64,000 nt of DNA, from contig JAACJP010000061.1 of assembly GCA_013368375.1 (NCBI GenBank), forward strand, positions 120,154-184,153. Direction: 5' to 3'. Within the stretch, counting starts at the first letter, position 1; each line of letters opens with the position of its first letter. This DNA comes from Tricholomella constricta. Its lineage: Eukaryota; Basidiomycota; Agaricomycetes; Agaricales; Lyophyllaceae. Position numbers and translations under genes: made by a program. The notes under the pieces are model-generated. The model saw only the letters and a program-made list of their open reading frames with translations, did no database searches and was not told the origin of the DNA. Positions 1,052 through 37,002 of the stretch are shown piece by piece.

Positions 1052-1062
1052 TACCCCCCTTT
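1052..1062 (-). promoter_or_regulatory. Polypurine tract of element 1
   Basis: On the minus strand this reads AAAGGGGGGTA directly against the 3' LTR, the expected place for plus-strand DNA priming in a Ty3/gypsy element. It confirms the element's orientation. Confidence 0.85.
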
Positions 1063-4335: not shown

Positions 4336-4415
4336 AACATATTTAACCTTCTGTCATAACTTTTGATGGTTATGTAATTTTTCTGATCGCCGTGATCACA
4401 TGACCGCGCCACATT

Positions 4416-7400: not shown

Positions 7401-8315
7401 TACCGAACGAGGCTCCCACCATTTAGAATCTGTATACCGATTGACCTTCGCGTAGAATTCCTCGCGAAGGGACATTGGGCACCTCGGCGCGTGGTACTGG
7501 TACTGTTTCTCATCGTCGACGAGAGTAATCTCGTGATTGACTTCCCGCCAGGGTGGTAGCTGTTGTTTCGTACCACCCACCATATCTTCGAATTCGTCAT
7601 GCCATTGCTGTCGAAGTCGTGGATAATCTTCCGCGGTAAGGCCTCCATTGGGTGCCTTACCTTTTCCGTTCACCGTTCTTGCAGCGCGAATGTGCGCTGT
7701 GTCTTTATTGCTGGGTTTAACATCAAATCTAGCTCGTAGTTTTACGAGAGCAAAGTCACTCTCATCCTTCACTGGTAACCGATACAACGGACGTTTAGCC
7801 CGTTGTATATTCACCGGAAAATTCATTTCCGTTGGCTCCGATACTTCCTCAGGCCGTGGATTTCGGTACGCTTGTCCTCGCGTGCCTACATTTCTTCCTT
7901 CGTGAGCCCGCATTGACGCTATTACTGCGTTCCATTCTTGCGGCATCCGTGGGTCGAACATCCACTCATATTGTGGATGTGGGTTTGGTCTATCCCAAAA
8001 TGATCGATTACTCGCATTCGTATACGGCTCTGATTCCGTATCCTTATCGGCCCCGCTCGTCTTACGCGCTTCATTATCGCGCTGGCGTTCTTCGCATGGC
8101 TCGTGAGTCCGTGCTCGTTCGTTCGAAGGCTTGTGTTGTGCCTTCTGCTGTTGTCGTTGGGGTTTTCTCTTCTTCGGAGGTGGCTTATCCCCCTCCTTAA
8201 GAGTTTCTTGAAACTCTTCATCGGATAATAGAAGTGCTGGGTGATCCTTTGGTAGGCTGTTTATCGGCCTACCCTCGTTATCAGGATCATCATCATCTTC
8301 TACTGTGACTTTTAG
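4416..8315 (-). pseudogene. pol: Element 1 pol (RT, RNase H, integrase, chromodomain) with in-frame TGA
   Basis: The pol frame continues without shift from the gag-protease stop at 8316. An acidic/Lys-rich linker leads into reverse transcriptase with the catalytic YLDDIFIF near 7055-7025. A TGA at 6992-6990, followed by GTA, then cuts the RT domain; by context it replaces an Arg codon (HL-R-VVFERL), i.e. CGA to TGA at a CpG. Downstream everything stays open: RNase H, the integrase HHCC finger near 5690-5560, DDE residues in MDFIGPF (about 5500), IVSDRDSKF (about 5330) and DGQTERANRS (about 5215), and a C-terminal chromodomain (EWFVEEILGHRW, WESHNN; about 4600-4440) that in relatives directs integration to modified histones. 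One base separates this pol from an open one, which fits the near-identical LTRs. Confidence 0.9.
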
Positions 8316-8318
8316 TCA
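8313..8318 (-). promoter_or_regulatory. UGA-CUA stop between gag-protease and pol (possible readthrough site)
   Basis: The gag-protease frame ends TGA CTA and continues in the same frame into pol with no other stop until 6992. UGA followed by CUA is a known efficient readthrough context. The stop lies after a complete protease and before RT, where such elements control the Gag:Pol ratio. The alternative is a CGA-to-TGA lesion like the one in RT. Confidence 0.5.
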
Positions 8319-11087: not shown

Positions 11088-11509
11088 CTTGACTATGCTC
11101 AGGGTGGACGCCCCGAACGCTCTACTTGACAGATGGCTGTCTGGCCATCTGCTTCCTGCCGTGGGGCCAGGTCAATATGACCTGGCCAATTCGTCGGCCA
11201 AGCTCCCCGGCACATTGGTGCTTGCTATCGGCCAAGGTTCCTCCGATTCTAATCCTAGTGTATTCTGCGCTGGTGGACTTTGTCCACCAGCGACTGATCC
11301 GACTTCCACTGGTTGCAGTGGAAGTTGTGATGGAGGATGCGCTGCGAGCGCATCCTCGAAGACCGGAGTTCGGCTCTTTCCGGATGTGGGAGTTGGTGTC
11401 ATCGGGTCTGGGTCTCGTGGGTTCTTTTGATGATGGTTGTTCTAAATGGAATGTGGTTCTGCGTATGTCGTGGGTACGCAGCAATAGAAAGCAAGGTAGC
11501 TTAAAAAAA
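11088..11509 (-). promoter_or_regulatory. Element 1 leader (5' UTR) tiled with perfect hairpins
   Basis: Perfect inverted repeats: 8-bp arms 11130-11137/11144-11151; 10-bp arms 11165-11174/11178-11187 (loop ATA); 11-bp arms 11268-11278/11282-11292 (loop TTT); 10-bp arms 11302-11311/11316-11325 (loop GTTG); 11-bp arms 11333-11343/11347-11357 (loop GCG); 7-bp arms 11459-11465/11475-11481. No TGG-type primer binding site follows the LTR; the minus strand begins with a T-run, then AGCTACCTTGC. ACCTTGCT is complementary to AGCAAGGT inside the LTR, a weak hint of self-priming. Confidence 0.75.
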
Positions 11510-11730
11510 TGTAACGGAGTTACAAGATTGGGGACCTTGCTGTGCACGCTAGACGTAAGCTTGACAAGTCTGTCGATTGCTACGTATAGGTGTACAAGGT
11601 CTACTATTTAATTATGTAATGTAAAGGATTAAATAGGCAACACCGGAAGGTGTTGCCAAACAATAGCATAATCGTGTCGATAAGATACGATTAGATCAGA
11701 TTAGTCGATACGATAGTAAGCGCCCTTACA
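11510..11730 (-). repeat. 5' LTR of element 1
   Basis: 221 bp, TGTAAC...CTTACA, identical to the left LTR except at 11722. The target duplication GAGAA follows at 11731-11735. Confidence 0.95.
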
Positions 11731-12204: not shown

Positions 12205-13248
12205 TGATAGAGCTAGAAGGCCTGTAGGTGCTGTGCACAACAACAAAACAACTAACAACTATGGGGGGCGAGAAGTGTTAAAAGTTCCCAAACACGCGAG
12301 TGTGCAGGGCTTGTAAGGGTTGTTTGACGAAGGTAAGAGACGATCCGACTCGTAGTTAGTCGAGCCGACAACAACGCGACGGGGGCGATGGAACGCGACG
12401 TTTCCCGAGTGGAACGGGTCGGCGACGCGACTTTGGGTGTCGGTCGTGCGACAACGAGACGAACGAGGTTAATACGGAGAACTCACGGGTTCGGGCGACG
12501 AGTACGAGGCGGCAGAGACGGTAGTTACGAGATTTACGACAGTGGCGACGGTTTATACGATGAGGACGGTGCAGAGACGACAGAGACGACGGTTTCGAGC
12601 TATTCACTCTGAGTGTGAGGGAAAATACGGGCTGTAATTCACTGGGGGAAGTAGGTAATACATGGGTATGTTTTTATACAATACGACCGACTCGCCTCGA
12701 GCGAGCCGGCGAGGCAGGTGTTTTACTGGTTTATTGGGAGAAGCGCCGCCAAGCTTGGTACCGCGCGACGCTTTTTTAGAGAGTGTGGCGCTCTTTGGCT
12801 CGGCAGAGGGGCTTTTGATCGGCTCGCGGCGTCGGGTCGGATGTATGATCGGTGGTGGCTTTGCGATCGGTAGTGGCTCTTGGGTGCGGAGCTCCGTGGT
12901 ACGGCCGGATCCTTCCAGTGACTGCTGGGCAACGGCGTTTCCTAGGATCATTTCAAATCGGGTTTGGTTGTCGCCAGGTTGAGACCTTGGCATACCAACG
13001 TGCGCGGTCGTTGACAGGTTATACGGCGTTCCGTGCTCCGCGCGCCCAGAGAGGAGAACTGGCGTTCCAAGTTACTTTGTCTCTTGGTCGGTGCGTCGGT
13101 CGTTTGTCGTATTGTCGGTCGGTCGGTCGTATTGTCAGTCGGTCGGTTTAGCGCTTTGGTCGCATTTGGGACCGTGTTCGTCGTGGCGCAACGGTAGATA
13201 TCCGTAGAATGGGTTGGTTCAGTGTACAGCGCTGGACGGTGCTCATCA
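12205..13248 (-). repeat. 3' LTR of element 2
   Basis: 1044 bp, begins TGATAGAG and ends GCTCATCA on the plus strand. Only 44 bp separate it from the oppositely oriented LTR of element 3. It contains a stretch of repeated GGTC units near 13085-13145 and an AT-rich TATA-like run (minus strand TATAAAAAC) near 12680. Confidence 0.95.
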
Positions 13249-13292
13249 TCTCCTCCTTACTTGAAATACCGACTGTCCTCAGTCGGTCCCGC
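13249..13292 (-). promoter_or_regulatory. 3' PPT and adjacent hairpin of element 2
   Basis: The minus-strand PPT core AAGGAGGAGA (13258-13249) abuts the 3' LTR. Next to it is a perfect hairpin with 8-bp arms ACCGACTG/CAGTCGGT (13268-13275 and 13280-13287). Element 3 inserted five bases further on, duplicating CCGC. Confidence 0.85.
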
Positions 13293-14329
13293 TGATGAGC
13301 ACCGTCCCGCGCTGTACACAGAACCTGCCCATAATAGACAGCAACCGCTGCGCCACGACGAACACGGTCCCGGATGCGACCAAAGCACCGAACCGACCGA
13401 CCGACAATACGACCGACCGACCGACAATACGACCAAACGACCGACGCACCGACCAAGAAACAGAGTAACTTGAAACGCCAGTTCTCCTCTCTGGGCGCAC
13501 GGAGCACGGAACGCCGTACAACCTGTCAACGACCACGCACGTTTGTATGCCAAGGTCTCAACCCGGCGACAACCAAACCCGATTTGAAATTATCATCGGA
13601 AACACCTTTGCCCAGCCATTCGCAGAGAGGATCCGGCCGTACCACGGAGTTCCGCACCCAAGAGCCGCTACCGATCGCAAAGCCACCACCGATCATACAT
13701 CCGACCCGACACCGCGAGCCGATCAAAAGCCCCTTTGCCGAGCCAAAGAGCGCCACACTCTCTAAAAAGCGTCGCGCGGTACCAAGCTTGGCGGCGCTTC
13801 TCACCATAAACTAGTAAAAACACCTGCCTCACCGGCTCGCGAGAGGCGAGTCGGTCGCATAGTATAAAAACATCCCCATGTACTACCTACCTCCCCCAGT
13901 GAATTACAGCCCGTATTTTCCCTCACACTCAGAGTGAATAGCTCAAAAACCGTCGTCTCCGTCGTCTCTGCACCGTCCTCATCGTATAAACCGTCGCCAC
14001 TGTCGTAAACCTCGTAACTGCCGTCTCTGTCGCCTCGTACTCGTCGCTAGAACCCGTGAGTTCTCCATATTAACTTTGTTCGTCTCGTTGTCGCACAACC
14101 GACACCAAGAAGTCGTGTTACCGACCCGTTCCGCCTGGGAACGATCGTATTCTGTCGTATCGCCGTCGGTTCGACTAACTACGAGTCGGATCGTCTTTAC
14201 TTTAATCAAACCACCCCTTTCAAACCCTGCACACTTGCGTGTTTGGGAACTTTTAACATTTCTCGCCCCCCATAGTTGTTAGTTGTTTTGTTGTTGTGCA
14301 CAGCACCTACAGGCCTCCTAGCTCTATCA
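13293..14329 (+). repeat. 5' LTR of element 3
   Basis: Begins TGATGAGC and ends GCTCTATCA. TATAAAAA at 13863-13870 is a candidate core promoter element. The (GACC)n-like stretch near 13390-13450 consists of two near-identical tandem units. Confidence 0.95.
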
Positions 14330-14332
14330 TTC

Positions 14333-14349
14333 TGGAGCCCACCGCGAGG
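14333..14349 (+). promoter_or_regulatory. Primer binding site of element 3
   Basis: TGGAGCCCACCGCGAGG, three bases after the LTR, has the TGG start expected for pairing with a tRNA 3' CCA end. The same 17 bases occur at 35955-35939 in element 2. Which tRNA matches cannot be told from this window. Confidence 0.8.
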
Positions 14350-14814
14350 GTTTTAAAAGCCACCGCCGGACACGCAACCTCATTCCTCTTGTTCATAAAA
14401 ACCTACGACTCGTCGACCATTCCGCCCGCAACCCGACAAGAAGCTAAAGCCCGAACCCTCCGTGCCGAAATTCGCGCTGCTCTCGGACAAGCCGACACCG
14501 ACTCAGAATCGCTCTCCCCGTTCTTCCGCTCAGTAACCCCACACCGCGCGATCCATAACAACCTCAGCCCGCTCTTCTATAGCCCTTCGTCGACACTACC
14601 GTCGCCTACCCCGACCGATCAAACACCGATCCCCGAACCAACCGCGCAACCCGACCTAGCTTTCGACCCCTTTGCGTCGGAACCTCCTACCACTGATCAA
14701 GGAGTTGAATTTAGACTCCCCTATCTATCGCCCGCGACCCCGGAAATCTCAGATTCTTCTTCACCGTCGTATTCCCCCTCCCCGTCCCCTATCCCGAAGC
14801 CAATACCATCTATC

Positions 14815-16102
14815 ATGGCACAACCACCAATCATTATAAAGCCGATGCCCGCACGCGGACAAAGCTCGGCGCCGACGTTCGTGCCCGAACGCGCGCGTGA
14901 ACTGCGCCGATATTTCTCGGACTTAAATCATCTCTTCATCGAGTGTAACGTCGTAGATGAACAAGAGCAGAAAACGCACACTACACGATACACCGACATC
15001 GATACCGCGGATCTGTGGGAGCAACTTGACGAGTTCGCGGTCGGCACCACATACGACGATTGGCGAAAAGCGATAATGGCGCTTTACCCAGGCGCAAGCG
15101 AAGAAAGAAAGTATTCAATGGCCGACCTCGACTACCTGATCAGGGAACGACACCGACTCGGGATCCAGTCGAATAGCGACCTCGGGGAATATTACCGACA
15201 GTTCCTTTCTGTTACCCAGTTCCTTGTCAGCAAAAACCGACTTTCGATAAACGAACGCGACCGCCAATTCCGTCGCGCGTTCCAGTCAGATCTATGGTCA
15301 AGGAGCGCCCATTACAGATCCGACCAAATCAACGACTCTATTCGAACGCGCACTCGACGCCACCATACCGGTCACAGTTCGAGAACTCTGCGGGGTAGCG
15401 CCAGAGGTTCGCGGAAAGTTTAGGGAAGCTAATACCCCGAAGCGTATCGTCGCCGGCAACCTCACAACGGTATACCAAGAAGTCCCCACGTCGGCGTTCA
15501 TTGAGGAACTCGACGCACTACCTTGCGAATCCAACAGCGACAACGCGACGCCACCGCCCGGAGCGCTAGTCACCGGCGACATCTACGACACGTATTACCA
15601 GACACTACTACCTGGCGAGCATCCGGACCGACTGATCGTCGCAATGGAATCGCATGCACTCAGATCGATCATGATAATGGTCGACGCAAGAGAACAGATA
15701 GAAAGCATCGTCGACAGCGGGTGCCAGATCATAGCCATGTCGGAAGAAGTTTGCCATGGACTAGGGGTCAAATACGACCCAACTATAGTGCTACAGATGC
15801 AATCAGCGAACGGAACAACCGACCCGTCGCTCGGTCTAGCACGAAACGTACCTTGTACGATAGGAGAGGTCACGCTCTACCTCCAAATGCACGTCATTCG
15901 CAACCCCGCATACGATATACTCCTCGGCCGCCCGTTCGACGTACTTACTTGCTCTAACGTGAAAACGAGATCCGCCGACGATACAATCATAACCATCACC
16001 GACCCGAACACTCGAGAGGTCATCGCGATACCGACCTTCGCGCGCGGACAACGTCGCCGCCCCAAAACCGACGTAAATTTTCGTATACTCTCGAGGAAAT
16101 AA
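14815..16102 (+). pseudogene. gag: Element 3 gag-protease with internal deletion
   Basis: First in-frame ATG at 14815 (MAQPPIIIKP); the frame is open upstream through the PBS to 14296 but has no ATG there. The Gag core (RELRRYFSDLNHLF, DDWRKAIMALYPG, REFHR-like region) matches element 2 up to about 15303. The sequence then jumps to text that in element 2 lies 1013 bp further on (33983/34983 side to 33970), which removes the coiled region and the CCHC knuckle and shifts the frame. The protease half is intact in its own frame: DSGCQI near 15714, then ILLGRPFDV. It ends TAA at 16102. A ribosome starting at gag would stop near 15423. Confidence 0.88.
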
Positions 16103-19100
16103 GTCGAGATCACGGCGATCTTGCACTCCTCCTCGAGTACGACCCACTAAGCTATACCCCGACTGTCCTTTCTTTCTGCGAACTACCAACCGAATTTAAT
16201 AGCGACGCCACCTACGACGCGCAACTAGCCTCACTCTACGTCGCGGCATCCGAACTAACCACACCAGCAATCGCCGACAAATCCGTTAATACCAACTCTG
16301 CCCCTCTGGAACGAACGACCCTCTGCACTATTTTACCGAACAACGAGCGCCATAGTGGACGCCACACCCAATCCCTGACCAACGCCGCCACCGACGCCTT
16401 CGTTGTGAAAATCAAAGGCGTACAAACCAAAAAGAAGTACAAACCAGTAGCGCAAAAAGTGCGATCGATCATAGCAAGTTGTCCCGACCACTTCCGCATC
16501 GAGCGCAAAATATCGGGCGACCCTCTCGCCGACATGCCGACTCTGCTCCCCAACCCGCCACCTTTCCAACCCACCGGCCGCTACACTCTAGAGCGAAAAA
16601 ACGACTTAGACCGTGAACACCCAGACTTCTTAACGCCCTCCGAACGAGCAATTATGCACGACCTCATGTGTAAGCAGAATCTCGCTTTCGCATGGGACGA
16701 TTCCGAACGCGGTAGTTTTCGATCGGATTTCTTTCCCCCTATCGATATCCCGGTCGTTGCACATACACCCTGGATCGAACGAAATATCCCCATACCGCCT
16801 GGCATCTACGATGAAGTTTGCGACATTATCAAAACTAAACTCGCCGCCGGCGTTTACGAACCGTCCAACTCCAGCTACCGATCGCGTTGGTTTTGCACTC
16901 TAAAGAAAAATGGCAAATTCCGCCTCGTCCACAGCCTCGAACCGCTCAACCGAGTAACCATCCGACACTCGGGTGTCACTCCGATACCAGACCATGTCGC
17001 TGAACAATTCGCCGGTCGCATTTGTGGCGCAATGTTAGACCTGTTTGTCGGCTACGACGAACGGCTAATCGCACCGTCGTCGCGCGACCTTACCACTTTC
17101 CAAACACCTTTCGGCGCGTTACGCCTAGTCACCTTACCTATGGGCTGGACCAACTCCGTCCCAATCTTCCACGACGACGTCACTCACATCCTGCAACCGG
17201 AGATCCCGGACTATACACTGCCTTATATCGACGACGCTGCTATAAAGGGACCAGCAACTTGGTACCCCGACCCGGACACAGGATTGCCGAAAACACACCC
17301 CGACAATGCCGACGTGCGATTCGCGATCTGGGAGTTTTTCAACAACGTTAACCGAATCCTCCAGCGCATGAAGTACTGCGGCGGCACCTTCTCCGGCAAG
17401 AAGCTGACTTTATGCGCCCCACAATTTAAAGTCCTCGGACACGTCTGCACGCCCAATGGTCGCATACCCGACGCGGACCGACTCGCTTTACTACGTAATT
17501 GGAAGTCGTGCGCCACCCTATCAGAGTTACGCGCGTTTTTAGGAACGGTCGGAGTACTAAGGATATTCGTCAAAAACTTTGCTCATCGCGCACACCACCT
17601 CGTAAAACTAACCCGCAAGGATGCAGTCTTCGAGTTCGGCCCCGACCAGATCGCAGCGCAGCGCGACATCGTCGAGGCGATCGCAGAAGCGAAACCCCTC
17701 GTGCCCATCGACTACGCCTCGGACGACCCCGTCATCCTGGCCGTCGACACTTCCCACATAGCAGTCGGATTCTACCTCTGTCAAGCCGACCCCGTCGATC
17801 GGAAACGACGCAGATACAATCGGTTCGGTTCCATTACACTGAACGACCGCGAATCACGGTTCTCTCAACCAAAACTCGAATTTTACGGCCTATTTCGGGC
17901 GCTTGGCGCGTTACGACTGTACGTTATAGGCGTCCGCAACTTGGTCGTCGAAGTCGACGCGCGCTACATTAAAGGAATGCTCTCCAACCCCGACATCCAG
18001 CCGTCAGCTTCCATAAACAGGTGGATCGTATCTGTCCTCATGTTCCACTTCGAACTTGTCCATGTTAAAGGCACGTTCCATGGACCCGACGGTTTGTCCC
18101 GGCGCCCACGACAACCCGACGATCCAGCCGACAACTACGACGCAGAAGAAACCGACTTCGAAGATTGGGTCGACCGGATGCAAGGACTCATGCACATTAT
18201 TCAACCGCTGCCACAGCCGCCGTCGCCATTACATGTGTGCCAGATCTTCGCTATGGCTCAGGTCTCAAGTAAAGAGGAGATGGTGGCAGTATACACGGAC
18301 GCGGTACCACCAGACTCAACGACTCACGAACTCGCAACCGATTCCCCACAACAACCCAGAATCCGTACCGACGACGATACAGGAATAACCGACCCAAATG
18401 CGAATTCGACCGACATGTCATACGACGACGTGCCCAGGACCGACGCCGCTAAAGCCCAAGACCAACGCATAGATACGGTTAGACAATGGTTAACCAACCT
18501 CGAACGGCCAGAAGGCATGTCCGACGATCAGTACGCCACCTTCATCCGATACGCCACCGGGTTCTTCCTAGACGGAACACGACTCTGGAGAAGAGATAGC
18601 CAAGGCGCACATAAACTAGTCGCCCGCCCCAACGCACGACTAGAGATTCTGCGATCCGTCCACGACAACCTCGGACACAAGCGCTTCTACGCGACACGCG
18701 CAACCTTGCTCGAACGCTTCTGGTGGCCTAATGTTCGGGCCGACGTCGTGTGGTTCGTACAGACATGTCACATATGCCAGATCCAGCAAACGACCAAAGT
18801 CCTGATCCCCCCGGTCGTTGCGACACCCGCGCCACTGTTTGCAAAAATGTACATCGACACTATGCACCTACCGCCGTCGAATGGTTTCAAATACATTGTC
18901 CAAGGTCGTTGCTCCTTGATTCACTTTCCCGAATGGCGCGCGCTACGAAAAGAAAACAGTCGCACCCTCGGCGATTGGATGTATGAAGACATCATCTGCC
19001 GGTGGGGCGGACTGCGCGAAATCGTAACCGACAACGGTCCGGCCTTCATCAAAGCCGCTGAACACCTCACAAAGAAATACCACATACACAACATTCGGAT

Positions 19101-19845
19101 CTCAGGTTATAACTCCAGAGCCAACGGACTCGTCGAGCGGTCCCATTTCGACGTTCGACAGTCCCTTTTCAAAGCCGCCGACGGAAACGAAAGCAAATGG
19201 TCGCAATCAGCTTATACGGTTTTCTGGGCCGAACGGGTCACAATCCGCAAACGAATGGGATGCTCCCCCTACTACGCCGCGACAGGTACTCAACCCCTTC
19301 TGCCGCTCGATATCGTTGAAGCCACGTACCTCCAACCGCCACCCGACTCTATCCTATCCTCCACCGACCTCTTGACGCGACGCGCGATCGCCTTACAAAA
19401 ACGGACGACCGACCTAGAGCGACTACATTCAGACGTATACGCGGCGCGAAGACAAGCGGCGATTCGCTTTGAACTTAAACACGCCAGAACCTTGCGCGAC
19501 TATAACTTTAAACGCGGAAACCTCATCCTAATGCGCAACACGAAAATCGAGAAGTCGCTCAACCGCAAAATGCGATCTAGATACCTAGGACCGCTCGTCG
19601 TGATCTCGCGCAACCGCGGGGGCGCCTACATCCTCTGCGAACTGGACGGCACCGTCTTACACCGGCCTGTAGCAGCGTTCAGACTCGCGCCCTACTTCGC
19701 GCGAAACAACATCCTCCTACCCGACAGCGCTCTGGACATAGACACCAAGCGACTTAGAGAACTGGAAGCAACAACAATCACCGACGACGAAGACCGACCC
19801 GAAGTCGTAGACGACGACTCCGAATCGGAAAACGAGCAAAACTAG
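15958..19845 (+). CDS. pol: Element 3 pol (RT, RNase H, integrase)
   Basis: Frame -1 relative to gag-protease, open from 15958 and overlapping gag by 145 nt, hence expressed by frameshifting; the first candidate internal start is 16405. RT carries LPYIDDAAIKG near 17222. RNase H follows (VILAVDTSHIAVGFYL near 17736; VEVDARYIKGML; HGPDGLSRRP). The integrase has an HHCC finger (VHDNLGHKRF...CHICQ, 18658-18783) and catalytic acids in KMYIDTMHL (about 18850), VTDNGPAF (about 19027) and GLVERSHFD (about 19130). No chromodomain is seen; the C-terminus is an RYLGPL-type SH3-like segment plus an acidic tail. All motifs look intact, but the gag deletion upstream should prevent its normal expression. 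Confidence 0.92.
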   Translation, partial: RENEIRRRYNHNHHRPEHSRGHRDTDLRARTTSPPQNRRKFSYTLEEISRDHGDLALLLEYDPLSYTPTVLSFCELPTEFNSDATYDAQLASLYVAASELTTPAIADKSVNTNSAPLERTTLCTILPNNERHSGRHTQSLTNAATDAFVVKIKGVQTKKKYKPVAQKVRSIIASCPDHFRIERKISGDPLADMPTLLPNPPPFQPTGRYTLERKNDLDREHPDFLTPSERAIMHDLMCKQNLAFAWDDSERGSFRSDFFPPIDIPVVAHTPWIERNIPIPPGIYDEVCDIIKTKLAAGVYEPSNSSYRSRWFCTLKKNGKFRLVHSLEPLNRVTIRHSGVTPIPDHVAEQFAGRICGAMLDLFVGYDERLIAPSSRDLTTFQTPFGALRLVTLPMGWTNSVPIFHDDVTHILQPEIPDYTLPYIDDAAIKGPATWYPDPDTGLPKTHPDNADVRFAIWEFFNNVNRILQRMKYCGGTFSGKKLTLCAPQFKVLGHVCTPNGRIPDADRLALLRNWKSCATLSELRAFLGTVGVLRIFVKNFAHRAHHLVKLTRKDAVFEFGPDQIAAQRDIVEAIAEAKPLVPIDYASDDPVILAVDTSHIAVGFYLCQADPVDRKRRRYNRFGSITLNDRESRFSQPKLEFYGLFRALGALRLYVIGVRNLVVEVDARYIKGMLSNPDIQPSASINRWIVSVLMFHFELVHVKGTFHGPDGLSRRPRQPDDPADNYDAEETDFEDWVDRMQGLMHIIQPLPQPPSPLHVCQIFAMAQVSSKEEMVAVYTDAVPPDSTTHELATDSPQQPRIRTDDDTGITDPNANSTDMSYDDVPRTDAAKAQDQRIDTVRQWLTNLERPEGMSDDQYATFIRYATGFFLDGTRLWRRDSQGAHKLVARPNARLEILRSVHDNLGHKRFYATRATLLERFWWPNVRADVVWFVQTCHICQIQQTTKVLIPPVVATPAPLFAKMYIDTMHLPPSNGFKYIVQGRCSLIHFPEWRALRKENSRTLGDWMYEDIICRWGGLREIVTDNGPAFIKAAEHLTKKYHIHNIRISGYNSRANGLVERSHFDVRQSLFKAADGNESKWSQSAYTVFWAERVTIRKRMGCSPYYAATGTQPLLPLDIVEATYLQPPPDSILSSTDLLTRRAIALQKRTTDLERLHSDVYAARRQAAIRFELKHARTLRDYNFKRGNLILMRNTKIEKSLNRKMRSRYLGPLVVISRNRGGAYILCELDGTVLHRPVAAFRLAPYFARNNILLPDSALDIDTKRLRELEATTITDDEDRPEVVDDDSESENEQN
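16075..16137 (+). promoter_or_regulatory. -1 ribosomal frameshift signal of element 3
   Basis: Slippery heptamer A AAT TTT (16075-16081) in gag phase, an 8-nt spacer, then a 7-bp stem CTCGAGG (16090-16096) with CCTCGAG (16131-16137). A smaller AGATC/GATCT hairpin sits in the loop. After a -1 slip, reading continues as SYTLEEISRDHG into pol. The same arrangement is found in element 2. Confidence 0.75.
18271..18280 (+). promoter_or_regulatory. Internal (central) PPT copy in element 3 pol
   Basis: AAAGAGGAGA preceded by TCAAGT and followed by TGGTGG, coding for SSKEEMV. It matches the 3' PPT at 24286-24295, including the TCAAGT before it and TG.TG after it. It lies about 5.0 kb into a 12.0-kb element. 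Confidence 0.65.
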
Positions 19846-20316
19846 CCGCTCAACCTCTGACTACCCGTATACCCCCCCCTTTTTTTTTTTAATGATATTT
19901 CGACATCTATCCCTCTCCGGTTTCTACTTAAACGTCCCACGACCCGACCATTCGCGAAGTCCAACACCCCGAGCGACAGTTTTTCCATTCGTTCTTTTAA
20001 CCCCCACTCAATTTTCAGGATCACACACTTAATACCTGACTTCGCAGGAAAACAGCACGGCGTATATTACATTTTAGCCCATTTTACGGGCTCCGACAAG
20101 TCCAAATACAGAACAGAAAAACGCGACGCCTCTAGCGGAGGAACGACGCGGCCACAACACCAAGAAAAAACGCGACGCCTCTAGCGGAGGAACGACGCGG
20201 CCACAACACCAAGAAAAACCGACCCAACAACCACCGACACCATGCGACGCCTCTAGCGGAGGAACGACGCGACCACGACCCCAAGACAAACGACGCGACG
20301 CCACCGCCGACTACCT
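19846..20316. repeat. Spacer between pol and antisense gene B, with 48-bp tandem repeats
   Basis: About 48-bp units containing CCTCTAGCGGAGG occur at roughly 20120-20167, 20168-20215 and, more diverged and offset, 20244-20290. A T-run follows the pol stop near 19878. This is where the pol and gene B transcripts converge. Confidence 0.7.
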
Positions 20317-22430
20317 CTACTCCTCCACCAAGTCACCTTCCACCTCCTCTTCGTCGCCCTCTTCGCCAGTTTCCACCGCTTCTTCCTCCGACGCCGCGCA
20401 GCTGTCGCTTTCCGAAAACTCGACACCGTCCGCTCGCATTAACTGAGAACGTCGCCTGCGGAGCGCAGTGATCGCGTTTGCTGTACCAGCGAATTGTTCG
20501 CGCACTCGGATAAGGCTCCAACGGGCGATCTCCTGCCGCGATTCCCAAAGGTGCAGCTCCTGAATTAGCGAACGCAACATGGCGTTGCGCGACGTTAGAG
20601 CCCGGTCGACGTCCCCCAGGGGAAGCGAGGCGACACGCGACAAATCGGTGGCGTAGCCTAAGCCATCCAAATCACGGTTGCGTGGAAGACTGGTTCCTCG
20701 GGGTACACGACCACCGTGGACGGCGCTGGCGCCCATGCCCGACCCCTCAACGGTGTATTGAGCTTCCTGCAGAGCCCCTACAGTCGGCCCCCAGTCTTCG
20801 TCACTGAACGCAGTAAGGGCGCGCGCCCGGCGACGCGAGACGGAAGGCGACACGGTCTCCACGTCCTCCTCGGAGTCCTCCACGACGGGCTTGGAGGCGA
20901 CGCGACGACGACTCCGCGGACGCGCGTTCTTGACAACTGCCGCGTCGGACTTGTACTTCACGGTTTCGCACCGCTTGGAGAAGATTTTGCACCGCGCACA
21001 GATCCCGCCCTCAGGTTTCTGAAAGCAGTCAACGGCGGCGTCGGCACAGCGATCACACTACAGCGTCGTCAGAATGCGACCGACCCGACAGAACACACAG
21101 CGACTTACCGGCTCGTCACGGATGAAGTGGTTCGGGTGGGCGACTTTGAACTCCTCTAGCCGCTCCAACCACTTAAACTCGGCGGCGGCCTTCTTCGCTG
21201 CCGTGGCCTGCTCCCGCTTCTTGGCCGCCGTGGCCCCCTTCTTGCCAGTCGCCTTCCCCGCCTTGACCGCCCCCGGCACCTTCTCTGTCTTGGGTACCAC
21301 CTCCACAACCTCAGGCGCGGACCCCTCGCCTTCGTCGTCGACAGCGCGCTTCCGCTTGCGGCTAGATGACGCTGGTACCGTGTCGATGAGGACGATGGGT
21401 GGTCCACCTACCGAAGGTGTCAGAGGGAGCCCGTCGATCGGACTAAAAATGACGGGTGAAGCAAACGCGAACTCACCAGCGGCACCCGTTTTCGGACGTC
21501 CACCTCCGGCCGACATGTGGGGTAACGTCACCGGGCGATATGCAGGGTCGCGCACGCTCAACACCTTGGCCCTAGCTTTAACCTTCCCCTTTGGAGGAGC
21601 GGAAGCGACGGGCGACGCGGGGGGTGCCTGATCGAGCATAACGACGTCGGACGCCGGAGGTGAGCGCGACAGGAGGGGGGGTCGCATCGGCTCCAGGGCT
21701 TCCCGCCCCATCCGCTCCGCCATCGCCATAACTCTCGCCGCTTCCGCTTCCCGCACGACACCCGCTACAGTGTGGGTATCGCTACCAGCCGGGCCGGCGA
21801 TACCACGGGGTGGCGCACCCGACTCCGGATGAAGGGGCGCGTCGTCGACTGTCGCGGACACTGGGAGGACACTTTCAGTTCCCACAGGAACCCCTGCTAC
21901 CGTAGCAGCCGAACTCGGTGCAGCCGCAGTCGTAGCGGTAGTTTCGGCATCGGTCGTGGGCAGACGCGGGTCGGTTGGTAGGGCCGCCACAGCCGTTAAC
22001 GCTGGCAGGTCCTCGGGCGCCACCGACTGGGCGGCGCGTATGTTGGCCGCCGCACCCAAGCGAGCACGACGGGTGCGACGACGGCGCGCGTTTTCACTCT
22101 AGGAAGGCTGGATAAGCAGCCCACCCACGGACCAGTCAAAACAACTAAACCGCGACGCACCTCAGGTTCTAACCCACCAAACGGCCCCCTCCACTCAGCA
22201 TCCCCCCCTACGACAGCCCAGACCGCACGCAACGCGGATTCCTCCTCAGGCCATACCCAACGCGGTTCCTCGCCCCCCTGGGCACGTAATGCCGACACTC
22301 CCTCCAGCAACCCCTCGAGAATGGCGAGACGTGCTTCACGCGACGCATCGGCAGACAGCGCTCGCCAGTCGTCCCAGTCGCCCTGAAGGTCCTCGAGGAT
22401 GAGTGCATAGTTGGGTGGCAGGTCAGCCAT
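20317..22430 (-). CDS. Antisense gene B of element 3: Zn2Cys6-motif protein
   Basis: Three exons: 22430-22161 (270 nt), 22098-21109, 21057-20317; introns of 62 bp (GTGCGT...CTAG) and 51 bp (GTAAGT...CTGAC...GTAG), both phase 0; 666 aa. Exon 1 is a domain shared by four genes here (DWDDWRALSADASR ... EPRWVWPEEE ... LEPE). Exon 2 opens with an Arg-rich run (ENARRRRTRRARL), then a long Pro/Ala-rich disordered region, a basic SSRKRKR signal and a helix WLERLEEFK. Exon 3 begins exactly at the first Cys of CX2CX6CX8CX2CX6C (21057-20968), followed by a helical segment (LGDVDRALTSRNAMLRSL) and an acidic tail. The spacing fits fungal Zn2Cys6 clusters, but the usual basic residues between Cys 2 and 3 are missing, so DNA binding is only inferred. 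Confidence 0.82.
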
Positions 22431-22836
22431 GCCTGAAGACGGTGTGGGAGGGAAAAAGAGGGAGCCGAGAAAGACAGAGGGTCCTTGGGAAACTTGACGC
22501 GAGGTCAAATTCTGTTGCACCGCCACCGCCATCTCACGCCACACACGCGTCAGTTCTAGAATTCTCTCGACCGGTCTCCGGACCGACTGAGGACAGTCGG
22601 CATTTCAAGTAAGGCGGAGACGAACTACAGATGAAACGACAGCCGATACTAGCAACCGACACCGCCAACCACAAAACCGACCGACACAACGAACCGACCT
22701 GCGCCACTTAAAACACGAAAAAATTCGAGCTATAAAGAACAACCCAATTTGAAGGCCCGAACCATAAAATAGGTATATACGGGATACGCGACCGGTAACA
22801 AACGTGACCCGACCGCAACACACGACAAAACCAAAG
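22431..22836 (-). other. Inter-module region with a third PPT-like repeat (element 3)
   Basis: Contains the 7-bp hairpin CCGACTG/CAGTCGG (22583-22589, 22594-22600) followed by CATTTCAAGT and AAGGCGGAGA (22611-22620), a diverged copy of the hairpin plus PPT found at 24257-24295. It marks the boundary between gene modules A and B and is a likely promoter area for gene B. Confidence 0.7.
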
Positions 22837-24133
22837 TCAAGGCGACGAACCCTCGCCACGATCGTCGCGTACGCCACAGTCGACATCGCTCCCACTACCG
22901 TTGCCCCCACTCCTCGAATTAACCATCGCAGACGCACCAACTAACTCGGCGCGCCGGGCCTGAAGCAAGTCAAGGGCCGACGACGTAGACACGACCTGCT
23001 CGTAAAGCTGACGGGACGACGAACGCATGATCTCTTGGCGCGATTCAAGGACTTGAATTTCCTGGACCAAAGTGCGCAAGAAAACGGTGCGCGCCGATAG
23101 CGCCCGATCTACATCTGCAAGACCAAACCGCGAAATAACCGACAACGGCTGAGTGGAGCCCAAACCGCGCAAATCTTCGTTACGAAGGAAGTCCTCAGGG
23201 CGGAACACCGGGCTCTGATAAAGGGGACCCGCACCCCGGTCTACTGAACTTGCCGAACGAGTTACGACAAGGCGCGGAGCGGCCCTTGCCAGATCGGGCG
23301 AACGGACCTCGTCGAACAGCGGAGGGGGCATACACGCGTCGCAAGAGTGGCCCTCTACTGAACACGACACGAACTGGTGCGGAGCTGGCCGAAACGGCCC
23401 CACTTCGTTCGTCTCGCACCGTCTAGATTGAATCTCGCAAACCGCGTAAACCTCAATGTCGCTGCGCTGAATGCAGCCCAAGCCATAGCTCACACAACGA
23501 TCGCACTAGCCAATAGATGAACGAAAGAGTAAGGACGCAAGAAGACCGACGACTTACCGCTTCGCTACGAGTGTAATGCTCAGGGTACTCCTCCTTAAAT
23601 TCCTCGAGACGTGCCAGCCACAAGCGGTGTCGCATCCCTTGTGCCGCCAATACCGACTCCCCGGAGAGCTCGACGACAGACTCTTCTTGGTCCCCGTCTC
23701 CAACAGAGGAAGCGCACGAACGCTCCCGAACGACAGACCCTGCCTTTTCTTCAGCGAAGGTGGCGCGCGTACGGACGACCGTCTCTCGGCGAGGGTAATC
23801 GGACTACCAACTAGCGCGTTAGTACTCTGCAGAAACGACCAAATAACCAGCAAGCGAACGCACACTCGGTTCTAGATCCGCGAACCGCTCGGACCATTCG
23901 GGGTCGGACTCGATCGTAGACCATATGTTAGATAATGCCTCTTCCTCGTCGCCCCACATCCAACGCCAGGGACTAGCCACCGGCGACCTAAGCACTTCGA
24001 GGCTGTTCGACAAGTATTGTAGCACACGGGTGCGCGCGTAACGAGGGGAGTCGGCCGACAGCGATTGCCATTCGTCCCAGTCTCGTTCCAAGAAGCGGAG
24101 AGTGCGCTGAAGATCGACAGGAGGTCTCGACAT
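22837..24133 (-). CDS. Antisense gene A of element 3: Zn2Cys6-motif protein, one Cys replaced
   Basis: Exons 24133-23864 (270 nt), 23803-23558, 23505-22837; introns of 60 bp (GTGCGT, TACTAAC branch, GGTAG) and 52 bp (GTAAGT...GCTAG); 394 aa. Exon 1 starts MSRPPVDLQRTLRF and keeps the W/EE pattern of the family. Exon 2 is short and holds WLARLEEFKEEYPEHY. Exon 3 starts CDRCVSYGLGC; at the fourth zinc-ligand position a Tyr stands instead of Cys (EVYAVC), so the cluster is probably broken. The C-terminal helical part (LADVDRALSARTVFLRTLVQ, ESRQEI) and Gly/Ser-rich tail are intact. Gene A is a paralogue of gene B, lying nearest the 3' LTR and transcribed away from it. Confidence 0.8.
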
Positions 24134-24256
24134 AACGATGGGTAAACCAATCAAGAACCCGAGTATATATATAGGTCGCCAGCGCACCGGCACCGCCACT
24201 TCCTCCTACCCCTGCCCCTCTTTTCCAAGACGAACGCCCCCTGACCGATGCACGGG

Positions 24257-24295
24257 ACCGACTGAGGACAGTCGGTATTTCAAGTAAAGAGGAGA
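24257..24295 (+). promoter_or_regulatory. 3' PPT and adjacent hairpin of element 3
   Basis: Hairpin ACCGACTG/CAGTCGGT (24257-24264, 24269-24276; loop AGGA), then PPT core AAAGAGGAGA at 24286-24295 directly before the LTR. Confidence 0.85.
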
Positions 24296-25332
24296 TGATG
24301 AGCACCGTCCCGCGCTGTACACAGAACCTGCCCATAATAGACAGCAACCGCTGCGCCACGACGAACACGGTCCCGGATGCGACCAAAGCACCGAACCGAC
24401 CGACCGACAATACGACCGACCGACCGACAATACGACCAAACGACCGACGCACCGACCAAGAAACAGAGTAACTTGAAACGCCAGTTCTCCTCTCTGGGCG
24501 CACGGAGCACGGAACGCCGTACAACCTGTCAACGACCACGCACGTTTGTATGCCAAGGTCTCAACCCGGCGACAACCAAACCCGATTTGAAATTATCATC
24601 GGAAACACCTTTGCCCAGCCATTCGCAGAGAGGATCCGGCCGTACCACGGAGTTCCGCACCCAAGAGCCGCTACCGATCGCAAAGCCACCACCGATCATA
24701 CATCCGACCCGACACCGCGAGCCGATCAAAAGCCCCTTTGCCGAGCCAAAGAGCGCCACACTCTCTAAAAAGCGTCGCGCGGTACCAAGCTTGGCGGCGC
24801 TTCTCACCATAAACTAGTAAAAACACCTGCCTCACCGGCTCGCGAGAGGCGAGTCGGTCGCATAGTATAAAAACATCCCCATGTACTACCTACCTCCCCC
24901 AGTGAATTACAGCCCGTATTTTCCCTCACACTCAGAGTGAATAGCTCAAAAACCGTCGTCTCCGTCGTCTCTGCACCGTCCTCATCGTATAAACCGTCGC
25001 CACTGTCGTAAACCTCGTAACTGCCGTCTCTGTCGCCTCGTACTCGTCGCTAGAACCCGTGAGTTCTCCATATTAACTTTGTTCGTCTCGTTGTCGCACA
25101 ACCGACACCAAGAAGTCGTGTTACCGACCCGTTCCGCCTGGGAACGATCGTATTCTGTCGTATCGCCGTCGGTTCGACTAACTACGAGTCGGATCGTCTT
25201 TACTTTAATCAAACCACCCCTTTCAAACCCTGCACACTTGCGTGTTTGGGAACTTTTAACATTTCTCGCCCCCCATAGTTGTTAGTTGTTTTGTTGTTGT
25301 GCACAGCACCTACAGGCCTCCTAGCTCTATCA
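24296..25332 (+). repeat. 3' LTR of element 3
   Basis: 1037 bp; no difference from 13293-14329 was seen on reading. Followed by the CCGC target duplication. Confidence 0.95.
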
Positions 25333-25450
25333 CCGCGCATTGGTCAGGGGGCGTTCTCCTTGGAAAAAGGGGCGGACATAGGAGCGAGTGGCGGTGCCGA
25401 CGCGTTGGCGACATATATATTTCCTGGTTCTTGTTTGTTTTCCCATCGTT

Positions 25451-26749
25451 ATGTCGGGACCTCCTGTCGATCTTCATCGTATTCTCCGCAATTTGGGACG
25501 AGACTGGGAGGAATGGCAGTCGCTGTCGGACGACTTGCCTCGTTACGAGCGTACTCGCGTGCTGCAATATTTGTTAAACGGCGTCGAAGTGCTTAGGTCG
25601 CCAGCAGCTGAACCCTGGCGCTGGGCGTGGCGCGACGAAGAATATGCTTTGCTCGACGTATGGTCTACGGTCGCGTCTGACCCTGAATGGTCCAGACGGT
25701 TCGCGGGTCTACAGCCGAGTGTAAGTTCGCTCTTCGTTGGCTTGATCGTTCCCGAGGGTTAACGCGCTAGTTGGTAGTCTGACTACCCTCGCCGACGGGC
25801 GGTCGTTCGGGAGCCTGCTCGCGTCGCCTCTGCTGGAGAAGAGGCAGAGCCTGTCGTTCGGGATCGTACGTGCGCCTCCTTGGTTGGGGACGGGGACGAA
25901 GAAGAGTCTGTAGTCGAGATCTCCGGGGAGTCGGTATTGGCGGCGCAGCGGAGGCGACACGATTTGTGGCTGGAGCGTCTTGAGGAGTTTAAAGAGAGTA
26001 CCCGGAGCATTACACTCGTAGTGAAGCAGTAAGTCGTCGGTTCTCGTGCGATCTTGTTCTTCCTCTCATTTGTTGGCTAGTGTGACCGTTGTGTGGGCTA
26101 CGCTTTGGACTGTGTTCAGCGCAACGGGATTGACGCTTGTGCGGTTTGCGAGATTCAGTCGAAGCAATGTGAGACGAGCGAGGTGGGGTCGTTTCCGCCG
26201 GCTCCGCACCAGTTTGTGCCCTGCTTAGCAGAGGGACGCTCTTGCGATGCGTGCGCGCCACCTCCGTTGTTCGTCGAGGTCCGTTCGCCCGACCTGGCGA
26301 GAACTGCTCAGCGCCTTGTCGTGACTCGTTCTGCGGGTTCGGCGGACCGGGGCGCGGGTCTCCTCTATCAAGGGCCGGTGTTTCGCCCTGAGGACTTCCT
26401 CCGTAACAAAGATTTGCGCGGTCTGGGCTTCATCCAGCCGTTGTCGGTGATTTCGCGGTTCGGTCTTGCGGATATAGATCGGGCGCTATCGGCGCGCACC
26501 GTTTTCTTGCGTACTTTGGTCCAGGAAATTCAAGTCCTTGAATCGCGCCAAGAGATTATGCGTTCGTCGGCCCGTCAGCTTTACGAGCAGGTCGTGTCCA
26601 CGTCGTCGGCCTTTGACTTGCTTCAGGCCCGTCGTGCAGAGCTAGTTGGTGCGTCTATGATGGACAACTCGAGAAGTGGGGGCAGCGGCAGTGGAAGCGG
26701 TATCGATGGTGGCGTACGCGACGGTGGTGGCGAGGGTTCGTCGCCTTGA
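25451..26749 (+). pseudogene. Antisense gene A' of element 2: Zn2Cys6-motif gene with 1-nt deletion
   Basis: Exons 25451-25720 (270 nt), 25778-26028, 26081-26749; introns 57 bp (GTAAGT...GGTAG) and 52 bp (GTAAGT...GCTAG). The product would start MSGPPVDLHRILRNL, closely matching gene A. Near 25991-26001 exon 2 reads AAAGAGAGTACC where gene A has one more base (AAGGAGGAGTACC). This throws the remaining frame off, so splicing into exon 3 reads VTVVWATLWTV and stops near 26228. Exon 3 itself still encodes an intact six-Cys cluster (CDRCVGYALDC ... CAVC ... C) and the helical C-terminus. Confidence 0.8.
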
Positions 26750-27143: not shown

Positions 27144-29033
27144 ATGACCACCGTCGTGTCGGACTTCAAGCGCGTCCTCCGATATCTGACCACCGATTAC
27201 ATTCGATGGTGTCAACTCCCCGACGACGCCACCCGCGCCGAGCACTTCGAGGCGCTCGAGGATATTCGGGACGGCTTGACCGCGCTTCGGAAACAAGAGG
27301 CGGGCCCCGGGCGTTTGGAATGGCGTGAGGAGCAGGAGGCGTTGTCTCAAATATGGGCGCGCATCAAGGACGACGGGGAGTGGTCGGAGAAATTCGCGGA
27401 TCTGGAGCCCGAGGTGCGTCCGTTTTCCGACTTCTGGTATGCAGATGACCGACGTGGCCTTGTCCGTCTTCAGGACGAGTATACCCGTCGACGCCGTGAA
27501 CGACGTCTTCAATCAGGAACATCTCGAGGCGCCGGAAATGCGCCACCGGTCGTATCTGGCGGGCTTGGGGGGGAATCGCCGGTCGAGCAGGGTCCCCGGT
27601 CGGATGTTGGCGGCATCGAAGTGCGTGACACGGAATTGGTGGCGGAGGCGGGGCAGGGGCACGGTAGCGTGGGCGCAATCCCGCCGCCGGTCGTGGGGGC
27701 ATCGTCCGGCGTTCTCGTGGCGCCATCGCCCCAGGGGAAAGGCAAATCCTCGCGGCCTCCTATTTTTGTGCCTCGTATGTCGGTTGGCGGCGGGTCGCGT
27801 GCTGGCAAAGGCGCTGTAGCCGACGTGCGTATCTCACGCGATTTTGTCCTCCCCCGGTTGCTAACACATTTTTTTTTTTTTTTTTTTGAACAGGCTGCGC
27901 CGTCCACTTCGCGATCGCTTCGTACGCGTGAGTCCGCCTTCCGATCGGGGCCTATCTTTAGCGCTGTGAGTGGTCTGCCCCTAACTAGTTTGGTAGGTGC
28001 GACGCCTGCCGCCACTGGGTCCGACGAGGCGACGACTTCGAGTCGTAAGCGCAAGCGCGACATCGTAGATGAAGGGGAAGGGTCGGTCGTGGAGGTCCCC
28101 GAGGAGGAGTTAGGGAAGGGCAAAAGGAAGCGGCGCACGACCGACAAGTGGCTCGGGCGCCTCGAGGACTTCAAGAAGGAGTGTCCTCACCACTTGGTGC
28201 GCGATGTGGCGGTAGGTCATCGGTCGGGTCTTGGCGTCTGTCAGCGCTGACTCTTCCACTAGTGCGATCGGTGCGTGGACGCAGGCGTCGATTGTCTGCA
28301 GAAGCCCGGCATCAGTCCTTGCGCGCTCTGCAAGATACATGCCAAAAAGTGCGAGACGACGCGCGACGGCGTCCCCCTCGTCGTTCCGAAGGCATCGGGT
28401 TCGCGATCGCGGCGCCAACACATCTCGCGCGCGGTCGTTGAGGATGTGGAGGAGGAAAAGCCCCACGTTGCGCCCATGTACCCGGTGCACCGCTCTCCCC
28501 CACCGTTCATGGCGGATCCCCGGGAGCGCGAGCGCGAACTGGCTGCGGTCGCACACCGCCTCGCGATGTTCCAGTCCGCCGGCTCTGCTGGAATGGGCAC
28601 GAGCTTCTTGCTTCAGGGATCGCTTCCTCAAGCCGAAGCCTTGCTTCGGAACGAGGACCTCGAGGGCTTGGGCTACATGGCGTCGACTTCGATGATCGAC
28701 AACTTCAGCCTCGCCGATGTGGACCGCACCCTCTTTTCTCGCAACGCCTTCCTCCGGACCCTGGTGCAGGAAGCGCAGGTCCTGCAGTCCCAACAAGAGA
28801 TAACGCGGTGGTCGCTGCGACAAATCTACTTGCAAGTCGAAGGTACGGTGGACGTGTTGAGGATGCTGAGAGAGCGGCGCTCGGAGGTGGTGGATGAGAT
28901 GGCGGCCGGGTCCGAGTCTAGTGAGGGGAGTGCCGTTAGCACCGACGATGAGGATGCCGAGGGTGAAGGCGAGGGCGACGTAGACGGGGAACAAGGCGAC
29001 GAGGGCGAGGGCGGGGATGTAGTGGTGGGGTGA
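27144..29033 (+). CDS. Antisense gene B' of element 2: Zn2Cys6-motif protein
   Basis: Four exons: 27144-27413 (270 nt), 27474-27824, 27894-28211, 28263-29033; introns 60, 69 and 51 bp, all phase 0; 569 aa. The 69-bp intron (GTGCGT ... GCTAAC ... a run of 19 T ... CAG) is absent from gene B, so it was gained or lost since the copies diverged. Domains: the shared W/EE N-terminal domain; an Arg-rich start of exon 2 (DEYTRRRRERR); a disordered Gly/Pro region; SSRKRKR; WLGRLEDFK. Then comes the cluster, starting at 28263 with CX2CX6CX8CX2CX6C, all six Cys present. The helical SLADVDRTLFSRNAFLRTL segment and a long acidic tail follow. No defect seen. Confidence 0.82.
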
Positions 29034-35958: not shown

Positions 35959-37002
35959 TGATAGAGCTAGAAGGCCTGTAGGTGCTGTGCACAACAACAA
36001 AACAACTAACAACTATGGGGGGCGAGAAGTGTTAAAAGTTCCCAAACACGCGAGTGTGCAGGGCTTGTAAGGGTTGTTTGACGAAGGTAAGAGACGATCC
36101 GACTCGTAGTTAGTCGAGCCAACAACAACGCGACGGGGGCGATGGAACGCGACGTTTCCCGAGTGGAACGGGTCGGCGACGCGACTTTGGGTGTCGGTCG
36201 TGCGACAACGAGACGAACGAGGTTAATACGGAGAACTCACGGGTTCGGGCGACGAGTACGAGGCGGCAGAGACGGTAGTTACGAGATTTACGACAGTGGC
36301 GACGGTTTATACGATGAGGACGGTGCAGAGACGACAGAGACGACGGTTTCGAGCTATTCACTCTGAGTGTGAGGGAAAATACGGGCTGTAATCCACTGGG
36401 GGAAGTAGGTAATACATGGGTATGTTTTTATACAATACGACCGACTCGCCTCGCGCGAGCCGGCGAGGCAGGTGTTTTACTGGTTTATTGGGAGAAGCGC
36501 CGCCAAGCTTGGTACCGCGCGACGCTTTTTTAGAGAGTGTGGCGCTCTTTGGCTCGGCAGAGGGGCTTTTGATCGGCTCGCGGCGTCGGGTCGGATGTAT
36601 GATCGGTGGTGGCTTTGCGATCGGTAGTGGCTCTTGGGTGCGGAGCTCCGTGGTACGGCCGGATCCTTCCAGTGACTGCTGGGCAACGGCGTTTCCTAGG
36701 ATCATTTCAAATCGGGTTTGGTTGTCGCCAGGTTGAGACCTTGGCATACCAACGTGCGCGGTCGTTGACAGGTTATACGGCGTTCCGTGCTCCGCGCGCC
36801 CAGAGAGGAGAACTGGCGTTCCAAGTTACTTTGTCTCTTGGTCGGTGCGTCGGTCGTTTGTCGTATTGTCGGTCGGTCGGTCGTATTGTCAGTCGGTCGG
36901 TTTAGCGCTTTGGTCGCATTTGGGACCGTGTTCGTCGTGGCGCAACGGTAGATATCCGTAGAATGGGTTGGTTCAGTGTACAGCGCTGGACGGTGCTCAT
37001 CA
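35959..37002 (-). repeat. 5' LTR of element 2
   Basis: 1044 bp, near-identical to 12205-13248 (differences seen at the positions equivalent to 12369, 12639 and 12700). Followed by the ACGC duplication. Confidence 0.95.

Follow-up and report, generated by a model that had tools for sequence, protein, structure and literature searches.

A stretch of 64,000 nucleotides from the basidiomycete Tricholomella constricta (referred to below as the window; contig C61, JAACJP010000061.1, bases 120154-184153) contains two related Ty3/gypsy retrotransposons with long terminal repeats (LTRs), one nested in the other, the inner lying on the plus strand and the outer on the minus strand. In both, two genes, here named A and B, run antisense to pol in the interval that separates pol from the 3' LTR. 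The genes consist of several exons with splice sites conserved among the copies of the element, evolve under purifying selection, are integral to the element, share a duplicated upstream motif and occur in mosaic combinations. Their products may be element-encoded regulators of the element's own promoters, analogous to the HBZ protein of human T-cell leukaemia virus (HTLV) type 1; this is the most likely of the readings considered, with a probability of about 0.45. Purifying selection, the presence of many copies in a single 44 Mb genome, the introns and a candidate binding site make such a function directly testable, and the introns allow RNA of A and B to be told from sense read-through.

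In the inner element, gene B (24133-22837) and gene A (22430-20317) are tandem paralogues with three exons and two introns each (Table 1). The introns are 60 and 52 nt long in B, giving a product of 394 residues, and 62 and 51 nt in A, giving one of 666 residues; in these models, predicted from the sequence, all junctions are in phase 0 with GT..AG borders. Intron 1 of B contains TACTAAC close to its 3' end. Neither inner gene is readable unspliced, since intron 1 of B has an in-frame TAA and its intron 2 is 52 nt long, while in A intron 1 is 62 nt long and an in-frame TAG closes intron 2. In both genes the first cysteine of a cluster opens exon 3, so that the initial annotation of two opposite-strand, three-exon genes with phase 0 introns and a last exon starting at that cysteine stands. 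It had also ascribed the spacing CX2CX6CX8CX2CX6C to both genes, which holds for the inner A only; the cluster of the inner B reads CX2CX6CX8-Tyr-X2CX6C, with tyrosine in place of the fourth cysteine. Copy L009, 99-100% identical to the inner copy over the segments compared, has cysteine at this position. In the outer element, exon 2 of B is frame-shifted, its length being 2 modulo 3.

Conservation of these structures was assessed across the source genome (44 Mb, 118 contigs). A search with exon 2 of B gave 79 matches. The survey covered 30 copies: the two of the window, 20 taken at about 10 kb (L009-L028; L024, at a contig end, spans only 1.9 kb) and 8 of greater divergence at 4 kb (L029-L036). 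Gene B starts with ATG in 28/28 copies with exon 1 read, this exon being damaged in L013 and L015. Exon 1 is followed by a GT donor in 28/28 B genes and, in register, in 27/28 A genes (one base off in L033), and AG directly precedes exon 3 in all 30 B and all 28 A genes. At 52 nt upstream of exon 3 of B stands GTAAGT in 29 of 30 copies and GTAAGC in L032. The frame of this exon is closed by a stop directly upstream in 30/30 copies, and that of exon 3 of A within 18 codons in 25/28. Exon 1 is open over 90 codons in 27/28 B and 25/28 A genes; exon 3 is open over at least 200 codons in 27/30 B and over at least 240 codons in 22/28 A genes, two of the short frames being truncated by a contig or locus end (L024 in B, L032 in A). 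Together with the substitution analysis below, the conservation of the splice sites confirms that the predicted gene structures are more than the product of chance.

Among the 28-30 copies surveyed, none was observed to have lost an intron. The argument that antisense introns would be invisible to the sense genomic RNA, and would persist where a sense intron would be lost, is borne out to this extent: the introns are present in the copies surveyed, as expected if sense RNA alone is reverse transcribed. Some features of gene A count against this picture. Its intron 2 is readable in frame in L014, L022 and L023 (3/28); in the outer copy, intron 1 of A is open in frame and exon 2 has a possible extra intron of 69 nt. 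The long frame of A therefore does not need splicing everywhere, and L014, L022 and L023 could possibly express a retained-intron form.

Selection was estimated from the ratio of nonsynonymous to synonymous substitution rates (dN/dS) by the Nei-Gojobori method, using pairs with dS of 0.05-1.2. For B, the median was 0.28 in exon 1 (27 copies) and 0.32 in exon 3 (27); for A it was 0.17 in exon 1 (13 copies) and 0.16 in exon 3 (14), and for the type of A found in the outer element 0.17 (6 copies) and 0.19 (5). The share of pairs with dN/dS below 1 was 1.00 every time. Two further types of A provided two pairs (0.00, exon 1) or none. Because pairs share ancestry, disjoint pairs were pooled. For B (13 pairs each) this yielded 0.31 and 0.42, for A 0.19 in both cases (5 and 7 pairs), and for the type of A in the outer element 0.27 and 0.20 (2 pairs each). 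When the same substitutions were moved to random sites, the mean was 0.75-0.82, and none of 100 runs per exon reached the observed value. Pol gave a median of 0.05 (109 pairs, 16 copies). The antisense proteins, lying below the control and above pol, are thus constrained, less strongly than pol, and the ratio near 1 that the initial annotation named as evidence against it was not found (pooled 0.19-0.42 for A and B, neutral control 0.75-0.82). The other reading frames had medians of about 1 to 2.8, except frame -1 at 0.28-0.39, where the low values probably arise from coinciding third codon positions.

These results bear on the suggestion that the region acts as antisense RNA, its reading frames being by-products. 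Transcription across the 3' part of the genomic RNA would yield double-stranded RNA, a trigger discussed for plant elements (PMC7264820). The splice-site conservation and the purifying selection that acts on the coding frame already disfavour this explanation, which appears extremely improbable.

Association of the genes with the element was examined from both sides, using 94 pol places out of 146 reverse transcriptase (RT) matches (those at 24-29% identity and fragments were excluded) and 156 gene places drawn from the matches listed (one search had 184 matches; some fragments were excluded). An antisense gene lies within 13 kb on the 3' side at 73 of the 80 pol places with at least 65% identity. 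The corresponding figure for places of distant gypsy elements (42-46% identity) is 1/14, and coordinates assign that one gene to a neighbouring element of the family; the genes accordingly belong to the element, as had been proposed. Conversely, pol was found on the opposite strand and on the expected side at 130/156 gene places. At the other 26, pol was not found within the limit on either strand; by coordinates, several of these lie near contig ends (C12, C33, C57, C58, C108), and some are L013, L015 and L027, in which pol is missing or broken within the stretch covered. In the stretches of two distant gypsy elements, L039 and L040, no relatives of the exons of A or B were found. L040 contains at 7067-8731 an open reading frame (ORF) of 555 codons opposite to pol, which has no match to A or B exons.

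The same counts were weighed against the idea that A and B are captured host transcription-factor genes, carried as passengers useful to the host or to nobody. Their intron-bearing structure is like that of host genes, and gene transduction has precedent (PMC7264820). The genes are, on the other side, present at 73/80 family pol places, and no relatives of A or B were found in a large protein collection in which 1506 relatives of pol turn up. Two pol-less places were inspected as candidate host genes and rejected as such: L037 is a decayed element retaining parts of LTR and pol, and L038 an isolated exon 3 fragment. A host origin of this kind is very improbable. The interpretation in the initial annotation is partly supported: A and B belong to the element itself, contain introns and evolve under purifying selection, whereas the regulatory role it proposed is a possible one.

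The paralogy of A and B is evident from their introns, which match in position (one follows codon 90, the other precedes the first cysteine), from exon 1, in which 19 of 90 columns are invariant in 22 sequences, and from exon 3, which is alignable between the two. A 30-base motif consisting of CCGACTGAGGACAGTCGG, then TATTTCAAGTAA, then a purine run accompanies both genes. Before the 3' LTR it has 0 mismatches in the 20 copies with this stretch found, and likewise in the outer copy at 13286; upstream of gene A, mostly about 150 bases from the start, it is present in 29/29 copies covering the region (up to 8 mismatches; L032 has a variant only). L016 and L019 have three such motifs in all. On the simplest reading, the A/B pair would have arisen by duplication, inside the element, of one gene together with its upstream region. 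The internal polypurine copy (22583-22622) is a possible central polypurine tract for reverse transcription.

Gene A occurs in at least four types, of which four are 36-51% identical in exon 1, on elements whose pol is at least 91% identical (six copies compared, L032 not among them); such divergent types on nearly identical pol are a kind of modularity. Gene A of L020 is of the outer type (97% identical in exon 1 and 91% in exon 3), and exon 1 of its gene B is 97% identical to the inner and 70% to the outer copy (exon 3, 82% vs 78%). L016 and L032 have identical exon 1 in A and are 80% alike in exon 1 of B. Recombination or template switching would be the natural explanation of these mosaic combinations, with the repeated palindrome/polypurine motif as a plausible crossover site.

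Divergence of this kind may also be viewed as the trace of an arms race, in which A and B defend the element against host silencing, for example by chromatin or small RNA. Besides the four types of A on nearly identical pol, the faster evolution of the proteins compared with pol (median dN/dS 0.16-0.32 vs 0.05) is in line with this explanation. Gene-wide dN/dS within types is well below 1, which argues against it, and we know of no host target; a defence role is considered unlikely.

The predicted proteins combine a 90-residue N-terminal domain with a linker, a cysteine cluster and a C-terminal region. Structure prediction gave five confident helices for exon 1 (predicted local distance difference test score, pLDDT, 91.9), and was mostly of low confidence for exon 3 of the outer B, except for a long helix at residues 129-198. 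A basic run is present in exon 2 of A in 28/28 copies, exon 2 being read as the longest frame open from exon 1 to exon 3, and in exon 2 of B in 1/27 (L033 was unreadable by the rule used). Among the last 40 residues, at least 12 are acidic in 21/28 exons 3 of A, and at most 6 in the 30 exons 3 of B. All six cysteines are complete in 28/28 A and 27/30 B genes, the exceptions being the inner copy, L027 and L028. The Zn2Cys6 consensus has the spacing CX2CX6CX5-12CX2CX6-8C, which the same 28/28 A and 27/30 B genes match, so that the cysteine pattern sought in related copies is indeed present there.

Assignment to the Zn2Cys6 family, expected from a profile search of the exon 3 product, did not hold in Pfam. 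No family was found above the cut-off in a scan of the pieces of A and B; PF00172 (Zn_clus) had no match at E <= 1 in 20 exon 3 proteins, and the clusters of A and B are without the basic stretch between the second and third cysteines that is usual in the Zn2Cys6 consensus; both points count against the regulator reading. The proteins resemble Gal4-type regulators in the spacing CX2CX6CX8CX2CX6C and in the long helix predicted further on, and differ from them in the lack of a Zn_clus match at E <= 1, the position of the cluster in the middle of the protein and the few basic residues between the first cysteines.

A cluster followed by a long helix might instead serve nucleic-acid binding and oligomerisation in a particle, with A and B as post-transcriptional accessory factors that bind RNA or cDNA, import the integration complex into the nucleus or assist capsid assembly. 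The basic runs in 28/28 A genes would suit such a role; in the inner gag frame Pfam gave no hit above the cut-off, hence no zinc knuckle was detected there, and selection shows that the proteins matter for persistence. The genes are opposite to the genomic RNA, and B has its own TATA-like sequence, an arrangement that would fit a regulator better than an abundant structural protein. Accessory factors are a possible though less than likely explanation.

This TATA-like sequence, 36-40 nt upstream of the start codon of the inner B, is found upstream of B in 27/28 copies, mostly 36-42 nt from the ATG, with L014 as the exception; none was found within 120 nt of gene A. A palindrome lies upstream of both genes and beside the TATA of the LTR, which makes it a candidate binding site; its CCG..CGG arms are suggestive with regard to the CGG triplets bound by Zn2Cys6 proteins. 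The pattern CCGRCT-N4..14-AGYCGG occurs seven times in the window, always within the two elements: four sites lie immediately upstream of an LTR TATA and three at the motif of the antisense genes; there are zero occurrences in the 39 kb of the window outside the elements. One LTR plus the inner interior contain three, whereas 300 shuffles had 0.08 on average and never as many as three. The arms of the LTR palindrome are 96% and 99% conserved and its spacer 89% (12 sequences).

Several points reduce the weight of these sites. The pattern was chosen after the sites had been seen, two of the three sites per element are the duplicated motif itself, and the internal motif of the outer copy does not fit the pattern, so that the excess is a lead rather than a test. 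Among strict hexamer palindromes in the inner element, none has three or more occurrences and two hexamers have two; the excess therefore depends on the degenerate pattern. In the LTR region, aligned in 21/22 sequences (L008 was unmatched), conservation is high throughout, at 93% around the palindrome vs 92% overall. Finally, for the copies compared, the type of A and the identity of the LTR to that of the inner copy do not go together, as they should if A recognised its LTR strictly.

A more specific proposal is that the pair forms an exchangeable immunity cassette like the repressor region of temperate phages. A and B would bind CCGACT/AGTCGG palindromes at the LTR TATA and in their own upstream regions and repress sense transcription of every copy with the same specificity, and copies in which A had been swapped at the duplicated motif would escape repression. 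Such a cassette must be regarded as improbable. In the more general reading, as regulators of the element's own promoters, A and B would each have a transcript that starts inside the element and, once spliced, encodes a protein with a 90-residue helical domain, a linker, a presumably zinc-binding six-cysteine cluster and, as predicted for B, a long helix possibly used for dimerisation. Since replication proceeds through sense RNA, the antisense introns persist, and duplication inside the element, palindrome and polypurine-like stretch included, would have produced the pair. The proteins, chiefly the basic and often acidic-tailed A, might then enter the nucleus, bind DNA and act on the element's promoters, sense transcription being tuned as it is by the antisense proteins of HTLV.

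Antisense genes at this position are already known, which corrects the initial annotation, where the arrangement was put forward as a candidate for an undescribed system. Plant elements (Grande gene23, RIRE2, Retand TRP28, PvRetro13) carry, in many or most copies, antisense ORFs of a class called aORF-3R that separate pol from the 3' LTR; the product of gene23, which is driven by a promoter of its own, is nuclear, and TRP28 is predicted to bind DNA (PMC7264820, PMC11963269). The function of such ORFs is described there as an open question in plants, and introns are not mentioned in the main text on them. A and B likewise occupy the interval from pol to the 3' LTR, antisense to gag-pol, and occur in most family copies (73/80 pol places). 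They are set apart, by description, by two introns each, a tandem paralogous pair and a six-cysteine cluster. In fungi, brtn of the Boty-like elements of Botrytis (Zhao et al. 2011, as cited in PMC7264820 and PMC8365987) is similarly an additional antisense gene in an LTR element. Compared by description only, it is a single gene of an ascomycete element, for which the citing papers, in the text available, mention neither a cysteine cluster nor introns.

The HTLV-1 HBZ protein and APH-2/3/4 are read antisense from the 3' end of a retroelement, are at least partly spliced and lower transcription from the 5' LTR (PMC10186651). They differ from A and B in being bZIP or unrelated proteins encoded by one gene with a promoter inside the 3' LTR, and no homology is claimed. 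A nuclear group I intron of Didymium contains an antisense homing endonuclease gene with a spliceosomal intron (PMC9548176); element and protein are different, and this mobile element with an antisense spliced gene shows only that the arrangement can be expressed. In the literature searched, outside which most subscription papers lie so that absence is unproven, no duplicated intron-bearing antisense pair in a fungal element was found, nor divergent types of an antisense gene on nearly identical pol. Relative to known aORFs, the intron-bearing duplicated pair without protein relatives and the at least four divergent A types on nearly identical pol appear to be new.

Table 1. Coordinates of the antisense genes and associated features of the two nested elements in the window
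Feature	Position	Strand	Remarks
Gene B exon 1	23864..24133	-	90-residue helical domain
Gene B exon 2	23558..23803	-	
Gene B exon 3	22837..23505	-	Cys cluster with Tyr at Cys 4, then region predicted as long helix in outer copy
Gene A exon 1	22161..22430	-	paralogous 90-residue domain
Gene A exon 2	21109..22098	-	linker with basic runs
Gene A exon 3	20317..21057	-	six-Cys cluster, basic patch, acidic tail
Outer element gene B	25451..26749	+ (opposite to its pol)	exon 2 length not a multiple of three
Outer element gene A, different type	27144..29033	+	
Palindrome CCGACTGAGGACAGTCGG and polypurine stretch	24258..24295	+	adjoins 3' LTR, upstream of gene B
Second palindrome and polypurine-like stretch	22583..22622	+	upstream of gene A
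TATA-like sequence	24164..24173	-	upstream of inner B start codon
LTR palindrome CCGGCT-N11-AGTCGG	24835..24857, also 13832-13854		just upstream of LTR TATA
Inner element 5' LTR	13293..14329	+	100% identical to 24296-25332
Inner element 3' LTR	24296..25332	+	100% identical to 13293-14329
Outer element 3' LTR	12205..13248	-	99.7% identical to outer 5' LTR 35959-37002
Inner pol open frame	15958..19845	+	RNase H and integrase zinc-binding by Pfam; RT by homology to related pol proteins

The assignment of the elements to Ty3/gypsy is based on LTRs, a target duplication and the presence of protease, RNase H and integrase in gypsy order. The inner element adjoins the 3' LTR of the outer one and is flanked by the 4-bp target duplication CCGC (13289-13292 and 25333-25336), which is backed by L051, a natural copy of the insertion junction without the insert. 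Head-to-head copies on contig C2 resembled a second nested insertion, but L051 showed an uninterrupted junction instead. The RT part of inner pol (15958-19845) has no match to Pfam RVT_1, unlike the RNase H and integrase zinc-binding domains. Among the 1506 pol relatives in the protein search, one of which is named Meripilus lineatus, PF00078 is absent from most of the 120 matches listed, and this RT perhaps represents a divergent clade. Inner gag and protease lie in two overlapping frames (14257-16102), where the outer copy has one continuous frame, and the pol of the outer copy has an in-frame stop; both copies in the window thus appear to be damaged, though not in the same gene. At 20120-20275, in the stretch separating pol from gene A, direct repeats some 29 bases long (gcgacgcctctagcggaggaacgacgcgg) were spotted by eye. 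Elsewhere in the window, a further LTR-type element lies on the minus strand at 829-11730, where repeats of 223 bases at 829 and 11508 enclose an ORF of 951 codons that includes a CCHC zinc knuckle, and a tandem array with a unit of 101 bases occupies 48797-49710.

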